Assembly: GCF_026586625.1 (NCBI RefSeq) | Contig: NZ_JAODIW010000010.1 | Location: 186,001 to 250,000, forward strand | DNA length: 64,000 nucleotides | Source: Halobium salinum | GTDB lineage: Archaea > Halobacteriota > Halobacteria > Halobacteriales > Haloferacaceae | Direction of reading: 5' to 3' | Shown here: piece by piece, positions 32,943 through 47,264 of the stretch | Layout of the letters: every line of letters starts with the position of its first letter | Position numbering within the stretch: the first letter of the stretch is position 1 | Notes under the pieces: generated by a model | What the model was told of the DNA's origin: nothing | Database searches by the model: none | Seen by the model: the letters and a program-made list of their open reading frames with translations, nothing else | Position numbers and translations under genes: made by a program

Positions 32943-33944
32943 TCAGAGACGGTCGACGACCGCCGCGGTCACGTCCTCAGTCGAGGCGTCCCCGCCGAGG
33001 TCCGGCGTTCGGGGACCGTCGGCGAGGACGCCTTCGGTCGCCTCGCGGACGCGTTCGCCCGCGTCGTCGTGGCCGAGGTACTGGAGCAACATCGCGGCCG
33101 AGAACAGCGTCGCAGCCGGGTTGGCGACTCCGTCGCCGGCGATGTCCGGGGCGGTGCCGTGGACCGGTTCGAACAGCGCGCGGTCGGGGCCGACGTTCGC
33201 GGAGGGGAGCAGACCGAGTCCCCCGACGAGGCCCGCCGCGAGGTCCGAGAGCACGTCGCCGGCGAGGTTCGGACAGACGACCACGTCGAACGTCTCCGGT
33301 TCGAGACAGAGGTGGGTCGCCACCGCGTCCATCAGCACCTCGTCGGTGTCGACGCCGCGTTCGTCGGCGACGCCGACGACGGCGTCGCGGAACCGGCCGT
33401 CCGTCTCGCGCATCACGTTCGCTTTGTGGGCGACGTGGAAACCCGGGGTCTCGCCGGCGTCCGCACGGTCGGTGACGTAGTCGCAGGCGAACTCGGCGAG
33501 GCGTTCGGAGGCCGAGGTGGTCACCACGCGCGTCAGCGTCGAGAGGTCCTCGGAGAGGCGGTCCTCGTGGCCCGAGTAGACGCCCTCGGTGTTCTCCCGC
33601 AGGAAGACGAGGTCCGTCTCCGGGCGGAGCGCGTCGACGCCGGGGTACGCCTTCGCCGGGCGTACGTTCACGAAGGAGTCCACAGCCTCCCGAAGCGGGA
33701 GGATGACGTCTGCGGCCGTCTCGCCGGCGGCACCGAACAGCGTCGCGTCGGCTTCGGCGGCGAGGTCGTACGTCTCCTGTGGCAGGGCGTCGCCCGTCTC
33801 CGCTTTGACGGCGTCGCCGGCGTCGGCCTCGACGAACTCGAAGTCGCCGACGGCCTCCAGCACCTCGACCGCGGCCGGGACGACCTCCTGACCGATGCCG
33901 TCGCCGGGGATGACGGCGATTCGGTCGCGTTCGTCGCGTCCCAT
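32943..33944 (-). CDS. leuB: 3-Isopropylmalate dehydrogenase
   Basis: NAD-dependent oxidation and decarboxylation of 3-isopropylmalate in leucine synthesis; 333 residues. Seen are [42 protein letters not shown], the Mg/substrate block [27 protein letters not shown] and [18 protein letters not shown]. The ATG at 33944 comes one base after the leuD stop; an in-frame GTG at 33953 overlapping leuD is an alternative. It is the last gene of the ilv-leu operon. Confidence 0.94.
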
Positions 33945-33945
33945 C

Positions 33946-34596
33946 TCAGACACCGTCCCCCGTGACGTACGGGAGCGAGTCCGCGGTCTCGCGGACGGCG
34001 TTCCCGTTCGCGCCCATCAGCGCCGTCGTGTCCCAGACGCCTTCGACGAGCGCCTTCCGCTGGGCGTCGTCGACGGTCACGTCGACGGTCGTGTCGCCGT
34101 AGGTGACGGTCTCGCCCTCGACGTCGACGTCGATGGTCTCCTGCGGGTGGGCGTCGACCCACGCCTGAATCTCCGAGACGGTCTCGTGGTCCGCGGTGAC
34201 GGTCGGGACGCCGAGCGCGAGGCAGTTGCCCGCGAAGATTTCCGCGAACGACTCGCCGACGATGGCGTCGACGCCCCAGCGCATCAGCGCCTGCGGGGCG
34301 TGCTCCCGGGAGGAGCCACAGCCGAAGTTGGCGTTCACGACCATCACCGAGGCGTCGCGGAAGCGGTCCTCGTTCATCGGGTGCTCCTTCTCCTCGTCGT
34401 CGTCCGTGAACCGCTGGTCGAAAAAGGAGAACTGACCCAGGCCGTCGAAGGTGACGACCTTCATGAACCGCGCCGGGATTATCTGGTCGGTGTCGATGTC
34501 GTTGCCGCGAATCGGGATGCCCGTTCCGGAGACGTGCGTGACGGTCTCCGCCGGCCCCTTGTCGCCGCCGTCGTCGGTGGGGTTAGAGGAACTCAT
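33946..34596 (-). CDS. leuD: 3-Isopropylmalate dehydratase, small subunit
   Basis: Swivel-domain subunit of isopropylmalate isomerase, 216 residues. Diagnostic blocks are [64 protein letters not shown] and the C-terminal [14 protein letters not shown]. The start is 2 nt from the leuC stop, so it is translated with leuC. Longer than the roughly 165-residue archaeal-type LeuD, fitting the bacterial-type subunit. Complete and with no sign of damage. Confidence 0.93.
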
Positions 34597-34598
34597 CG

Positions 34599-36035
34599 TT
34601 ACGCCTCCACCTCCCCGTCGACCTCGCGCTCGGGCAACTCCCGGACGTCGGTGACGTGGCCGGTGACGGCGGCGGCGGCGACCATCCGTGGGTTCATCAG
34701 GACCGTGCGGCCGTCCTTCGACCCCTGTCGGCCCACGAAGTTGCGGTTCGAGGAGGAGGCACACGCCTCGTCGCCCTCCAGTTGGTCCTCGTTCATGCCG
34801 AGACACATCGAACAGCCGGCGTTGCGCCAGTCGAACCCCGCTTCACGGAACACGTCGTCAAGCCCCTCCGCCTCGGCGGCGGTCTGGACGCGCTGACTGC
34901 CGGGGACGACCATCGCGCGCACGTCGGGGTCGACCTCGCGGCCCTTCACGAGTCGGGCGGCGCGACGCAGGTCGGCCAGCCGGGCGTTCGTACAGGAGCC
35001 GAGGAAGGCGACGTCGACCTCGTACCCCTCCATCGTCTCGCCGGGCGTGACGCGCATGTGTTCCTGCGCGCGCCGCGCCGTGTCCCGCTTGTCCTCAGGC
35101 AGGTCCTCGGGGTGGGGAATCGGTTCGGAGATGCCGACGCCCTGTCCGGGCGTGGTCCCCCACGTGACGACCGGCTCCAACGAACTGCCGTCGATGGTGA
35201 CCACGTCGTCGTACTCGGCGTCGTCGTCGGAGGCGACGGACTCCCAGTACGGCTTCAGGCGCTCGAACTTCTCGGGGTCGTCGCGGAAGGCGTCGGTGTC
35301 GCGCAGCCACTCGTAGGTGGTCTCGTCGGGGTTGACGTACCCCGCGCGGGCGCCGCCCTCGATGGACATGTTACAGATGCTCATTCGGCCCTCCATGTCG
35401 AGGGATTCGATGGCCTCGCCCGCGTACTCGTACACGTAGCCGACGCCGCCGTCGGTGCCGAGCCGGCGGATGATCTCGAGGATGACGTCCTTCGCCTCGA
35501 CGCAGTCGCCGAGCTCGCCGGTGACCTCGATTTTTCGCACGTCCTTCTTCTCCATCGCGACACAGCCGGTGGCGAGCACGTCGCGAATCTGGGACGTGCC
35601 GATACCGAACGCGAGGGCGCCGAACGCGCCGTGCGTGGAGGTGTGAGAGTCGCCACAGACGACCGTCATGCCGGGTTGAGTCATCCCCTGTTCCGGCCCG
35701 ATGACGTGGACGATGCCCTGGTCGCCGGAGGTGGGGTCCGAGAACTCGATTCCCGAGTCGCGAACGTTCTCCTCCAGTTCGGACATCATCTCCTCAGCGG
35801 CCGCGTCGGCGTACGGCCGGGACTGGTCGGCCGTCGGCACGATGTGGTCGACCGTCGCGTGCGTGCGCTCCGGGAACGCCACGTCGACGCCGCGCTCGCG
35901 CAGCATCCCGAACGCCTGCGGGCTCGTCACCTCGTGGATGAGGTGGAGGCCGACGAACAGCTGGGTTTGGCCCGTCGGCAGCGTCGTCACCGCGTGGTTC
36001 TCCCACACCTTGTCGTACAGCGTTCCGTCACTCAT
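34599..36035 (-). CDS. leuC: 3-Isopropylmalate dehydratase, large subunit
   Basis: Aconitase-superfamily [4Fe-4S] dehydratase, 478 residues. Visible are [68 protein letters not shown] and [15 protein letters not shown], the latter two supplying the cluster Cys residues, then [12 protein letters not shown]. The ATG at 36035 ([16 protein letters not shown]) is the usual start; it overlaps the end of the small hypothetical gene by 8 nt. Fourth gene of the operon. Confidence 0.95.
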
Positions 36036-36396
36036 GTACGCCGTCACTCCCGTCCTCGGCGTCGTCGTTCACCTCGTCCTGGGCGGACAGTTCGTCGCCG
36101 CGCTCCCACACCTCGTTGGGCTCGTCGCCGTTCGGGGCGGTGTGCTCGACGTCCTTCATCCGCTGGCCGTCGCCCGCGTCCTCCTCGTCGTCGCGCTCCG
36201 GCACCGCACCGCCGTCGGCAGTTCCACGGCCGTTCGGTGCCGTTCCACCGTCGGCAACGGCGGGGCCGCGAGTGTAGACCGTGGTAAACGTCTCGCCGGT
36301 CTGGGGGTTCGTGTGGCTGACCTCCCCCATCGTCTGTCGGCTCCGGTTCTTCTCCGTCACGCTCGTCTCGTCCGTGTCTCGTCGATTCGCATTCAT
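36028..36396 (-). CDS. Conserved-looking acidic hypothetical protein inside ilv-leu operon
   Basis: A 122-residue, strongly acidic, probably disordered protein. The only patterned block is [22 protein letters not shown]; the rest is Asp/Glu/Gly-rich. Its start shares ATGA with the ilvC stop and its end overlaps leuC by 8 nt, so it is certainly read as part of the operon. I recall an unnamed protein at the same place in other haloarchaeal ilv-leu operons, but could not check. It does not resemble any biosynthetic enzyme. A regulatory or stabilising role is speculation. Confidence 0.8.
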
Positions 36397-37445
36397 GCGT
36401 TGACCTCCGCTCTCTCGGCCTCGTCCTCGCTCTCCGACTCCTCCTCCTCGGCCCACGCGAACAGTTCGCGCAGGCGGCCGCCGACCTGTTCGATATCGTG
36501 GTCCTTCTCGGCCTGCCGAATCTGGGTGTAGCTCGGCCGGCCGGCCTGGTTCTCGGCGATCCACTGGCGGGCGAACTCGCCGGTCTGGACCTCCTCCAGC
36601 ACCTGTTCCATGTTCTCGCGGGCGTGCTCGTCGACGATGCGGTCGCCGCGCGTCAGCCCGCCGTACTCCGCCGTGTCGGAGACGGAGTCCCACATGCCGC
36701 CGAGCCCGTCCTCGTACATCAGGTCGACGATGAGCTTCATCTCGTTCAGCACCTCGAAGTACGCCATCTCCGGGGAGTAGCCGGCGTCGACGAGCGTCTC
36801 GTACCCCTGCTTGATGAGGCTCGTGACGCCGCCACAGAGGACGGCCTGCTCGCCGAACAGGTCGGTTTCGGTCTCCTCCTGGAACGTGGTCTCGATGACC
36901 CCCGCGCGGGTGCAGCCGATGGCGTGAGCGTAGGCGAGGGACTCCTCCTTCGCCTCGCCGGTCGTGTCCTGGTAGACGGCGATGAGGCCCGGCGTCCCCT
37001 GGTCGTTCTCGTAGTTCCGACGCACGAGGTGGCCCGGCGACTTCGGTGCGACCATCGTCACGTCCACGTCCTCGGGGGGCTGTATCTGGTTGTAGTGGAT
37101 GTTGAACCCGTGGGCGAACTGGAGCGTGTCGCCCGCGTCGAGTTCGTCCTCGATGGCCTCGAACACCGCCGGCTGGGCGGTGTCGGGGACGAGCATCGAG
37201 ACGATGTCCGCCGCCGCCGCGGCCTCGTCCGGCGTCGCCACGTCCAGCCCGTCGGCCTCGGCGGCCGAGCGCGACGAGGAGTCCTCGCGCAGGCCGACGA
37301 CCACGTTCACCCCGCTCTCGGCGAGGTTCTGCGCGTGGGCGTGTCCCTGGCTCCCGTAGCCGAGGACGGCTACCGTCTTGTCGTCGATTTTCGAGCGGTC
37401 CGCGTCGTCGTCGTAGTACACTTCGGTGGTGAAGTCGTCAGTCAT
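36393..37445 (-). CDS. ilvC: Ketol-acid reductoisomerase
   Basis: Isomerises and reduces acetolactate or acetohydroxybutyrate with NAD(P)H and Mg2+. The 350 residues have the Rossmann motif [92 protein letters not shown] (metal ligands) and [12 protein letters not shown]. It is a class I (short) KARI. Its start overlaps ilvN by 8 nt and its stop overlaps the next gene by 4 nt. Confidence 0.95.
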
Positions 37446-38163
37446 CGTCTGTGGTGGGTGTGGTCTGTGGGGTGGTCTGCTGTTCGGTCGCCGAACTGTT
37501 CGCCGCCGCCTCGTGGCCGGGGTCCTCGTCCGGCGTCGTCGGCGTGTCGCCGCGGGCGAGCGCCGTCTGGCCCGTCCGGGCGATCTCGATGATGCCGAAC
37601 TGCCGGAACGCGTCGACCGCGTCGTCGATCTTCTGCTGGTCGCCGGTTATCTGCACCGTAATCGTTCTGGGCCCGGCGTCCAGGGTCTGGCCCTCGTACA
37701 TCTGCGTGATGGCGTGGACCTTGTCCGGTTCGTCGCCCCGCACCTTGAGGAGGACGAGCTCCGCGCGGACGGCGTCGTTCCCGAGTTCGCCGACCGCGAT
37801 GGCGGGCTTGAGCTTCGCCAACTGCTTCTTCACTTGGTCGATGCCGGCGTCGGTCTCCTCGACCACGAGCGTGATGCGCGCGTGGCCGTCCACGGTGGTC
37901 GGGCCGACGGTAAGGCTCTCGATGTTGAACTGCCGTCGGGAGAACAGCCCCGAGACGCGCGACAGCACGCCGGGTTCGTTCTCGACCAGCGCCGAGATGA
38001 CGGCGCTTCGCTTTCGTGGCTCGGCCTCGACCTCGGGGTCGATGCGCACGCCGTGAGAGTTGCGCCGCCCCTCTGGGTGCGGGCGCTCCTCGGGACGCGG
38101 GCCTTTCAGGCCCTGCTTCGGCAGGTCGCCGTTGTCGGTCGGCTCCTCGGAGTCGCCGCTCAT
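37438..38163 (-). CDS. ilvN: Acetolactate synthase, small (regulatory) subunit
   Basis: ACT-domain subunit giving branched-chain feedback control to IlvB. The domain is at about residues 52-130: [37 protein letters not shown] and [26 protein letters not shown] second regulatory part contains [13 protein letters not shown] and [32 protein letters not shown]. Both termini carry haloarchaeal low-complexity extensions (about 50 acidic/charged residues before, a Thr/Gln tail after). The ATG overlaps the ilvB stop (ATGA). Confidence 0.93.
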
Positions 38164-39980
38164 AGCTGGTCCTCCGTCAGAGCGAACTTGCCGTTCGCAC
38201 CGCCGCTCGGCACCATCGGGTAGACGTTGGCCCCGGGGTCGACGTGGAAGTCGATAACCGAGGGGCCGTCGTAGGCCAGTGCCTCTTCGACCGCGTCGGC
38301 GACCTCGTCGTAGTCGTCGACGGTCCAGCCCTTTGCGCCGAACGCCTCCGCCAGTTTGTCGAACTGGGGACACCAGTCGTAGCCGGCGGCCATCCGCCGG
38401 CCCTCGAAGAATGCGTCCTGCCACTGGCGGACCATCCCGATGTACTCGTTGTTGAGCACCGCGACGGTGATGTCGAGTTCCTCGCGGACGGCCACGGAGA
38501 GCTCCTGGAGCGTCATCAGGAACGAGCCGTCGCCGTCGACGCAGACGACCTGCTGGTCGTCGTCGGCCGCGAGGCGAGCACCGATGGCGGCCGGGAGGCC
38601 GTACCCCATCGTGCCGAGCCCGTGACTGGACACCCACGTACGCGGGCTGGTGTAGGTCCAGTACTGGGCGGCCCACATCTGGTGCTGGCCGACGCCCGTG
38701 GTGACGATGGTGTCGTCGGCCGTCGCCGCGTCCAGCGCCTCGACGACGAACTGCGGCTTCAGCGGCTCGTCGTCGGGGGTGGCGTAGTCCATCGGGTACT
38801 CGTCCTTCCACGTCGCGCACTGCTCGCGCCACGCCGCCGTGTCGGGGGAGGACCCGACCGCCTCGCTCAGCTGTTCGAACACCGTGCCCGCGTCGCCGAC
38901 GAGCGGGTAGTCCGCGTACACGTTCTTCGAGATTTCGGCCGGGTCGATGTCGGCGTGGACGACCTCCGCCTCGGGGGCGAAGGTGTCGACGCCGCCGGTG
39001 AGGCGGTCGTCGAAGCGGGTGCCGACCGCGACGAGCAGGTCCGTGTGGGTAATCGCCATGTTGGCGTAGCCGGTGCCGTGCATCCCGGCCCACGACAGCG
39101 AGAGGTCGTGGTCTTCCGGGAACGCGCCGATGGCCGGCATCGTCGTCACGACCGGGACGCCGTGTTCGACGGCGAACTCGCGGGCGGCCTCACAGGCGTT
39201 CCCCTTCACGACGCCGCCGCCGAGGAGGAGGACGGGCCGTTCGGCCGCCTCGAAGGCTCGTGCCGCGGCCTCGACGTCGGCCTCGTCGGCCTCGTCGGCC
39301 GGCGAGTAGGTGTCGGGGAGGCGGCCCTCGCCGGGTTCACGCTCGGTCTCGCCGAGGGTCGTGTCCTTCGGCAGGTCGACCAGCGTCGGCCCGGGACGGC
39401 CGGCGCCGGCCAGCGACAGCGCCTCGCCGACGGTGTCGCCGACGGTGTCCGCGTCGCCCGCGAAGTAGTTGTGTTTCGTGATGGGGGTCGTGACGCCCAT
39501 CGTGTCCGTCTCCTGGAACGCGTCGGAGCCGACCATGTGCGACGGGACCTGCCCCGTCAGCGCGAGCACCGCGTCCGAGTCCATGTTGGCGTCGGCGATG
39601 CCCGTCACGAGGTTGGTGGCGCCGGGGCCCGAGGTGGCGAGGCAGACGCCCGGCTCGCCTTTCACGACCCCGTAGGCGTCGGCCGCGTGGGCCGCCCCTT
39701 GTTCGTGGGCCATCGTGACGTGGCGCACGTCGGCGTCGTACAGCGCGTCGTAGACGGGCATGATGGCGCCGCCCTGCACGCCGAAGGCGGTCTCGACGCC
39801 GGCGTTCTCCAGTGCGCGGACGACGGACTGCGCGCCCGTGGTGACGGGCGCCCGGTCGGCGCCGTCGTCGGGCTGTTCGTCGCTCGGTTCCGCCGACATG
39901 TCGCGCTCGGCGCCGTCCGCCGGCGGGTCGTCGGGGTTCTCTTCTGCTCGGTCGGCTTTCGGTGTCGCGGGTTCGCTCAT
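38160..39980 (-). CDS. ilvB: Acetolactate synthase, large subunit
   Basis: ThDP/FAD enzyme making acetolactate and acetohydroxybutyrate, 606 residues. Seen are the catalytic Glu in MAHEQGAAHAADAYG, CLATSGPGATNLVTGIADANMDSDAV, FQETDTMGVTTPITKHNY, the FAD domain with VGTRFDDRLTGG, and the ThDP motif CVDGDGSFLMTLQELSVAVREELDITVAVLNNEYIGMV. The first roughly 45 residues are an acidic leader. No TATA box lies near its ATG; transcription most likely begins at the leader-peptide promoter at 40200-40210, leaving a transcript of about 200 nt before this start codon. Confidence 0.95.
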   Translation of the reverse strand: MSEPATPKADRAEENPDDPPADGAERDMSAEPSDEQPDDGADRAPVTTGAQSVVRALENAGVETAFGVQGGAIMPVYDALYDADVRHVTMAHEQGAAHAADAYGVVKGEPGVCLATSGPGATNLVTGIADANMDSDAVLALTGQVPSHMVGSDAFQETDTMGVTTPITKHNYFAGDADTVGDTVGEALSLAGAGRPGPTLVDLPKDTTLGETEREPGEGRLPDTYSPADEADEADVEAAARAFEAAERPVLLLGGGVVKGNACEAAREFAVEHGVPVVTTMPAIGAFPEDHDLSLSWAGMHGTGYANMAITHTDLLVAVGTRFDDRLTGGVDTFAPEAEVVHADIDPAEISKNVYADYPLVGDAGTVFEQLSEAVGSSPDTAAWREQCATWKDEYPMDYATPDDEPLKPQFVVEALDAATADDTIVTTGVGQHQMWAAQYWTYTSPRTWVSSHGLGTMGYGLPAAIGARLAADDDQQVVCVDGDGSFLMTLQELSVAVREELDITVAVLNNEYIGMVRQWQDAFFEGRRMAAGYDWCPQFDKLAEAFGAKGWTVDDYDEVADAVEEALAYDGPSVIDFHVDPGANVYPMVPSGGANGKFALTEDQL

Positions 39981-40085
39981 GCTGGTGCTGGGTGGTCGGT
40001 CGACGAGTCGGTCGAGTCGCTGGCCGGCCGGGTCGCGAACCGGTCGGCGAACGGTGCGGAGACGGGTACGGAAGGTGGGGTGATG

Positions 40086-40101
40086 GGGGCTAGGCAGCCC
40101 C
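40086..40101 (-). promoter_or_regulatory. Hairpin enclosing the leader-peptide stop codon
   Basis: GGGGCT / AGCCCC stem (minus strand 40101-40096 with 40091-40086), loop GCCT. The TAG of the leader peptide (40092-40090) spans loop and 3' arm, so a ribosome at the stop would open the stem, while one held at the Val codons (40128-40120) would not cover it. Directly after comes a C-rich, G-poor stretch (about 40089-40050) without ORF. How this acts on transcription is not shown by sequence. Confidence 0.55.
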
Positions 40102-40176
40102 TACGATAATGAGCGAACGGACGACGACCGCGTCGCTCTCGGCGGGCGAACGCCGGGCGACTGTGGGTCGCGTCAT
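40090..40176 (-). CDS. Putative branched-chain leader peptide of the ilvB operon
   Basis: A 28-residue ORF starting MTRPTVARRSPAESD and ending AVVVRSLIIVGAA then TAG. Its run of Val, Leu and Ile codons (GTC GTC GTC, CTC ATT ATC GTA) at positions 17-25 sits just before the stop. The arrangement is like the E. coli ilvB leader, which I recall as having a VVVV-R-VVVVV run. The ATG lies about 30 nt after a TATA box, so the mRNA would start near 40178 and be leaderless. ilvB begins 109 nt after the stop. The antisense frame is unremarkable. Function as an attenuator is inference. Confidence 0.7.
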   Translation of the reverse strand: MTRPTVARRSPAESDAVVVRSLIIVGAA

Positions 40177-40199
40177 CGTATCTGGGCCGAGTACGTGGT

Positions 40200-40210
40200 G
40201 GATAATAACT
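40200..40210 (-). promoter_or_regulatory. TATA box of the ilv leader / ilvB operon
   Basis: AGTTATTATCC on the minus strand, centred about 30 nt before the leader-peptide ATG (40176) and about 225 nt before ilvB. It is the only TATA-like sequence between leuA and ilvB, which argues that the leader is transcribed with the operon. Confidence 0.65.
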
Positions 40211-40332
40211 CTGTCGCGGGGTGCAAGCTCTGCCCCGGTCACTCGCTACCGGGGCGGAACGAGTCCCACAACGACGGCCCCGACGTTTCAGCCGCCGCTC
40301 CGTGTGCGGGGTGAACGAAGGGGTCGCCATCG

Positions 40333-41554
<1,222 letters not shown>

Positions 41555-47129: not shown

Positions 47130-47264
47130 TCAGGGGCCGCCGCAGGTCGTCGCGAATCCGGCCGCCGCGCTCCCGGCCTGTGAGAGCAACAGCAGCATCG
47201 TGAACAGGGCGCCGATCATTCGCGGGTTCTCGGTCAGGTACGTCGTCAGGTCGTTGTCTTCCAT
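47130..47264 (-). CDS. 44-residue hydrophobic peptide, DUF7503-like
   Basis: MEDNDLTTYLTENPRMIG then ALFTMLLLLSQAGSAAAG and FATTCGGP. One membrane segment (about residues 16-36), polar N-terminus, C-terminal Cys-Gly-Gly-Pro. I recall a haloarchaeal family of such peptides (TYLxENPRxIGxLFTxxLLLSQAG), named DUF7503. TTATTAAATTA at 47290-47300 is a TATA box about 30 nt upstream, so the gene is leaderless. It is convergent with the CHAT gene, 152 nt apart. Function unknown. Confidence 0.8.
   Translation of the reverse strand: MEDNDLTTYLTENPRMIGALFTMLLLLSQAGSAAAGFATTCGGP

Follow-up and report, generated by a model that had tools for sequence, protein, structure and literature searches.

Leader-peptide attenuation is a textbook mechanism of bacteria; to our knowledge, no archaeal case has been described, and none was found in the open papers searched. 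A short open reading frame (ORF) in front of the ilvB operon of Halobium salinum raises the question of whether such a case exists. An earlier note on the 64,000 nucleotides of DNA analysed here, referred to as the window, had proposed leader-peptide attenuation for a 28-codon ORF at 40090-40176. Comparison across haloarchaea indicates that this leader is probably a ribosome-mediated attenuator of the haloarchaeal ilvBNC-leuCDB operon, although its sensor differs from the one proposed.

The ORF itself is borne out and reads on the minus strand, a strand that the note had left unstated; on the plus strand, the translation of 40090-40176 is nonsense. The TATA box placed about 30 nt upstream corresponds to GTTATTATC, centred about 28 nt before the leader ATG. 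Equally, ilvB begins 109 nt after the leader, at 39980, and has no TATA box near its start, just as had been noted. The stop codon indeed lies inside a GC-rich stem, whereas the run AVVVRSLII is specific to this genome. The locus comprises the following elements:

40201-40209, minus strand: TATA-like box GTTATTATC of the leader promoter, assigned by its position in the window and by the A+T peak in 91 nonredundant leaders.
40090-40176, minus strand: leader ORF of 28 codons, apparently leaderless from its promoter geometry, with the translation MTRPTVARRSPAESDAVVVRSLIIVGAA followed by a stop; the same core stands in 141 of 146 ilvB loci.
40102-40107, minus strand: putative regulatory codons, namely Ile ATC (40107-40105) and the invariant rare Val GTA (40104-40102; GTA in 91/91).
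40086-40101, minus strand: GC stem-loop GGGGCT-GCCT-AGCCCC directly after GTA; its loop and 3' arm share the leader stop TAG (40092-40090).
40070-40089, minus strand: C/T-rich tract without G, containing CCTTCC and terminator-like by its TTC statistics; it begins with the 3' arm of the stem.
38160-39980, minus strand: ilvB, large subunit of a biosynthetic acetolactate synthase (TIGR00118, E=7.2e-205), the presumed regulated gene.
37438-38163, minus strand: ilvN, overlapping ilvB as in an operon; named by sequence inspection and position.
32943-37445, minus strand: ilvC, leuC, leuD and leuB in series, the remainder of the presumed operon; ORFs named by sequence inspection.

Known families offered no assignment: Rfam covariance models gave no relevant match to riboswitches, T-boxes or other leaders in 39800-40500, and the leader peptide matched nothing in Pfam or NCBIfam.

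For comparison, protein searches of four haloarchaeal families, that of the window among them, supplied ilvB loci, to which a DNA pattern added 30 more. The search for leaders allowed any third base in the Val codon; GTA was imposed in the 30 pattern-derived loci and not in the protein-derived ones. Lack of the ORF in relatives had been named as grounds for abandoning the proposal. Instead, the ORF is kept across several haloarchaeal families: of the 146 loci in which the ilvB motif is present, 141 have upstream of it a short leader ORF that reads V-G-(A/V)-(x)-stop, with Ile in front in almost every case, and is set against a GGG..CCC stem; an in-frame ATG is present in all but one of them (140/141). 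Three of the five remaining loci keep ATTGTAGGGG and reach a stop a few codons later, and the other two (L121 and L122) end in SIRVRAAPAH, keep an in-frame GTA and have their stem re-paired as GGGCC-GCTCC-GGCCC. A covariance model of the core found matches in 45 of 53 haloarchaeal genomes versus 1 of 242 other Halobacteriota, that one at E=0.01. Moreover, the exact pattern occurred 41 times in about 85,000 species genomes, 40 times before ilvB and once at a contig end; 40 of these matches carry haloarchaeal names, and the remaining one belongs to a MAG called simply Euryarchaeota archaeon. Judged by these searches, the element is specific to the class of haloarchaea. Since the C-terminal core and the TATA-placed start recur before ilvB throughout haloarchaea, and since a TATA filter over the 64-kb window lets only three short ORFs pass, the leader ORF lies far beyond chance.

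With respect to its expression, the 91 nonredundant leaders show an A+T peak at -32 to -27 from the leader ATG, which would put the start of transcription on this codon or only a few bases from it. The leaderless geometry seen in the window thus holds throughout haloarchaea. When all frames are considered, the ATG best placed relative to a TATA box shares the frame of the core in 74 of 75 cases, and the stop falls at one same place in the form of TAG (67), TAA (18) or TGA (6). In other words, the short leader ORF upstream of a regulated gene that characterizes an attenuator is represented here by a conserved and frame-locked ORF, which is presumably translated. Mere openness of the frame was rejected as evidence, one other frame being likewise open in 91/91. 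The body of the leader, by contrast with its end, is near-neutral at the amino-acid level (synonymous changes in 35% of single-change codons versus 30% expected), as is to be expected if it only needs translating.

Two readings that dispense with a regulatory role of translation can be weighed at this point. A stand-alone small protein gene that stands before ilvB by happenstance would account for the promoter and the ORF; this is scarcely credible in view of the near-neutral body, the variable length, the invariant codon choice and stem, and the strict linkage to ilvB. Similarly, GTAGGGG-N-CCCC could be the DNA or RNA binding site of a regulator to which the ORF is incidental, a reading in line with the invariance of GTAGGGG at the base level and the drift of the 3' arm beyond CCCC. 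It is nevertheless very improbable, as the motif keeps frame with the TATA-placed ATG despite leader lengths of 18 to 54 codons, an in-frame stop of any of the three kinds follows at once, and GTA is found again in unrelated valS leaders that have no GGGG stem.

The codons next to the stem suggest what the ribosome would sense. In all 91 nonredundant leaders the Val codon is GTA, compared with 0.6% of the Val codons in ilvB, and every leader match had this codon even where the search left the third base free. The preceding residue is Ile, with synonymous variation between ATT (67) and ATC (23), or in one case Leu. The residue two before Val, on the other hand, is free and can be I, R, G, A, S, P, V or F, which rules out the conserved Val/Leu/Ile run that the earlier note had taken for the sensor. 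Given this freedom, and given that Gly and the following Ala/Val are dictated by the stem bases GGGGC/T, the conserved unit is Ile-GTA directly against the stem. The control codons cognate to the pathway product that are expected of an attenuator are hence Ile ATY and the invariant Val GTA. Two pairings were considered and discarded. GUA-UAC pairing is ruled out as the cause of the GTA invariance by the occurrence of TAC after CCCC in only about a quarter of the leaders, and a pairing between the core and UACGAU in the start region, as in the fold of the window, is broken by the starts of family f4 (..GTAATG), as judged by eye.

The same codons bear on the idea that the peptide itself is the signal, in which case a branched-chain amino acid would cause the C-terminal IVGA to arrest the ribosome from within the exit tunnel, and control of ilvB would lie with this arrested ribosome. 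This is quite unlikely. The ending IVG-Ala/Val-stop is near-universal, and there is a weak resemblance between the window peptide and E. coli IvbL, which 67 of 5000 shuffles equal and which is probably largely one of composition. However, Gly and Ala/Val follow from the stem bases, three loci continue past IVGA, and the two that end in SIRVRAAPAH do without IVGA yet retain GTA and the stem. Together with the near-neutral body, this leaves no conserved nascent peptide of the kind that marks arrest peptides, and selection for a peptide sequence gives no reason for GTA to be the fixed codon. It is these loci without IVGA, the neutral body and the fixed codon that render peptide arrest the less likely explanation.

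The second constant part of the leader is its stem, the best version of which comprises 5 to 9 pairs in every leader. In 44 diverse sequences, 89.4% of the cells are paired versus 86.4% in shuffles (0/500 as high), and 9 cells have changed on both sides versus 3.1 in shuffles (0/500). Because there is little variation in the outer pairs, support from covariation is confined to the two pairs nearest the loop; folding of the leader as a whole shows nothing unusual (z = -1.42). G is scarce downstream of the stem, at 3% and then 12% in the first two ten-base blocks, and a T/C tract follows at 11-16 nt, with T rising to about 50% at +11 to +13. The first 40 nt after the stem contain TTC in 92% of the leaders, a share that falls to 24% and 12% in more distal stretches, and TTTC in 47%, as against 1% more distally; the tract of the window itself, CCTTCC, is weak. 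A stem with a directly adjoining T run, as in bacterial terminators, was not found, the T/C tract standing in its place. This tract resembles the terminators of H. volcanii rather than bacterial ones: there, a T stretch is followed by C, with 95% termination for T5C and 59% for one hairpin element (PMC7237163). Likewise, no second, mutually exclusive structure in the manner of the trp antiterminator/terminator pair was found, but a single conserved stem with the stop codon inside.

The T/C tract also points to termination as the controlled step, as opposed to a post-transcriptional mode in which a stalled or terminating ribosome alters RNA folding or decay and thereby controls ilvB translation or mRNA stability. 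This mode is unlikely on the whole. It would suit those relatives that have a second upstream ORF (uORF) over the ilvB start, in several with GGAGG (for instance L004 and L066). Reinitiation from the leader stop, however, is improbable over the 109 nt present here, because in H. volcanii translational coupling does not extend past about 30 nt (PMC12548453). The second short ORF overlaps the ilvB start in L004, L026, L066, L068 and L086 and is absent from the window; it suggests translational coupling in those lineages.

Comparable leaders precede other genes. In 23 of 30 loci (L194-L219), pheS follows a leaderless ORF of the MASEP..GFGFFF type at a distance of about 35-190 nt; it ends in GFGFFF(x) or close to it, its Phe codons vary synonymously between TTT and TTC, and in several cases the stop again falls inside a GC stem. 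After the stop, pheS leaders also have conserved GGTGGA and GAAACCG boxes, which could pair. E. coli likewise has a Phe-rich leader, pheM, before the genes of its Phe-tRNA synthetase, pheST, but the haloarchaeal one is archaeal, leaderless and built around GFGFFF. The second type of trpS is preceded in 11 of 13 loci (L222-L234) by a leader of the form MQSAP..WRWR..GADS..AA with Trp codons in WRW. Finally, valS of the high-scoring type, mostly from a Halobacteriaceae-like family (f2), has an ORF of 9-10 codons in 8 of 9 loci (L298-L305), all eight with GTA GTA CGT and most with a TTTCT-like tract after the stop. As GTA makes up 0.2% of the Val codons in those valS genes, and its pair here counts as cognate control codons as well, two mutually unrelated leaders of Val-related genes stand out by their choice of GTA. 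No cognate leader was found before hisS, leuS, trpC or the canonical trpS. Two uORFs in a start-site study of H. volcanii, one of 26 aa before pheS and one of 23 aa before trpS HVO_A0127, are given there without a regulatory reading (PMC4983044, Table 2); they provide independent evidence that transcription of two of these leaders begins at a start of their own. The ilvB leader is not among the 16 uORFs of that survey, which had a limit of 250 nt and found 15-31 aa (PMC4983044); in Haloferax, this leader starts about 244-250 nt upstream of ilvB and has 33 codons, at the edge of that limit and beyond those lengths.

Attenuation, as the favoured reading, draws support from the conservation, from the leaderless geometry and from the cognate-codon leaders before pheS, valS and the second trpS, and has to be amended in that the sensor would consist of Ile and one invariant rare GTA abutting the stem. 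What the comparison shows is the anatomy of the leader, its conservation, its codon choice and its linkage to ilvB; transcription start, translation, stalling, termination and regulation are what we infer from these, in the following manner. Transcription would start at or a few bases from the leader ATG, as the promoter geometry implies, so that the first ribosome would load at the 5' end of the RNA and trail RNA polymerase. If Ile-tRNA and, above all, the Val-tRNA for the rare GTA are charged, the ribosome would reach the stop in the stem-loop and leave, whereupon the free GGGG/CCCC stem would form beside the T/C tract and transcription would end. On the contrary, under shortage of Ile or Val the ribosome would stall with the Ile or the GTA codon in its A site, and its leading edge would cover the 5' arm right after GTA, preventing the stem and permitting read-through into ilvB. 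Termination at the stem and T/C tract may involve FttA, the likely archaeal polarity factor (PMC12548453). Several findings speak against attenuation: the conserved sensor codons number only two, fewer than in classical attenuators; the second structure, an unusual fold of the whole leader and a strong T/C tract in the window were not found; covariation is confined to two pairs; the pheS leader is without a comparable T/C tract; and the ilvB leader is missing from the uORFs listed for H. volcanii.

Extending this reading to the parallel cases, we lean slightly towards a general, previously undescribed leaderless leader-peptide system of haloarchaea (ilvB, valS, pheS and second-type trpS), in which ribosomes would read charged-tRNA levels to control transcription, GTA, a codon almost missing otherwise, would together with its tRNA serve to sense Val, and the bacterial terminator/antiterminator pair would give way at ilvB to a single stem that overlaps the stop codon and is masked by the ribosome. 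If true, archaeal transcription-translation coupling would serve as a sensor, operating from leaderless RNA and without Rho.

Several bacterial systems are similar in arrangement. The E. coli ivbL leader of ilvBN is likewise a short ORF about 100 nt before ilvB, with Val codons near its end and leading into structured RNA. It differs, however, in its long run of GTG/GTC Val codons and its hairpin followed by a T run, as opposed to one invariant GTA in an ORF that starts leaderless, and a stem that overlaps the stop codon and carries no T run. Bacterial ivbL and pheM function much like the proposed attenuator, but sequence homology to them is not supported. In the tnaC leader of E. coli, the ribosome at the leader end masks a factor-dependent termination site, following peptide arrest by Trp and with Rho as the factor. 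The proposed control of ilvB would share with tnaC a single ribosome position that masks downstream RNA without an antiterminator, but would depart from it in lacking Trp peptide arrest and Rho, the archaeal factor being likely FttA (PMC12548453). In actinobacteria, too, a uORF with branched-chain codons controls ilvB or ilvBNC, which by arrangement is alike; the bacterial hairpin attenuators differ (PMC10272879, PMC11857589, PMC1262725).

Apart from the leaders, the neighbouring leuA deserves mention. Its body in the window (41370-40333, minus strand) has no usable start in its own frame, and the only TATA-placed ATG before it opens a frame one base off, reading MSNNTSSVTNPTDRVLRGHISPHY up to a stop (41554-41480, minus strand). 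The one-base offset and a conserved GTTCTTC occur at leuA in 15 of 15 haloarchaea examined (relatives L282-L295), about half of which have no ATG, GTG or TTG in the leuA frame before the DTTLRDGEQ motif. The sequences suggest that leuA may undergo programmed +1 frameshifting at CTT-C, a Leu codon; a literature search found no paper on a programmed leuA frameshift. The third TATA-placed short ORF of the window, of 44 aa, lies at 47264 on the minus strand and reads MEDNDLTTYLTENPRMIGALFTMLLLLSQAGSAAAGFATTCGGP.
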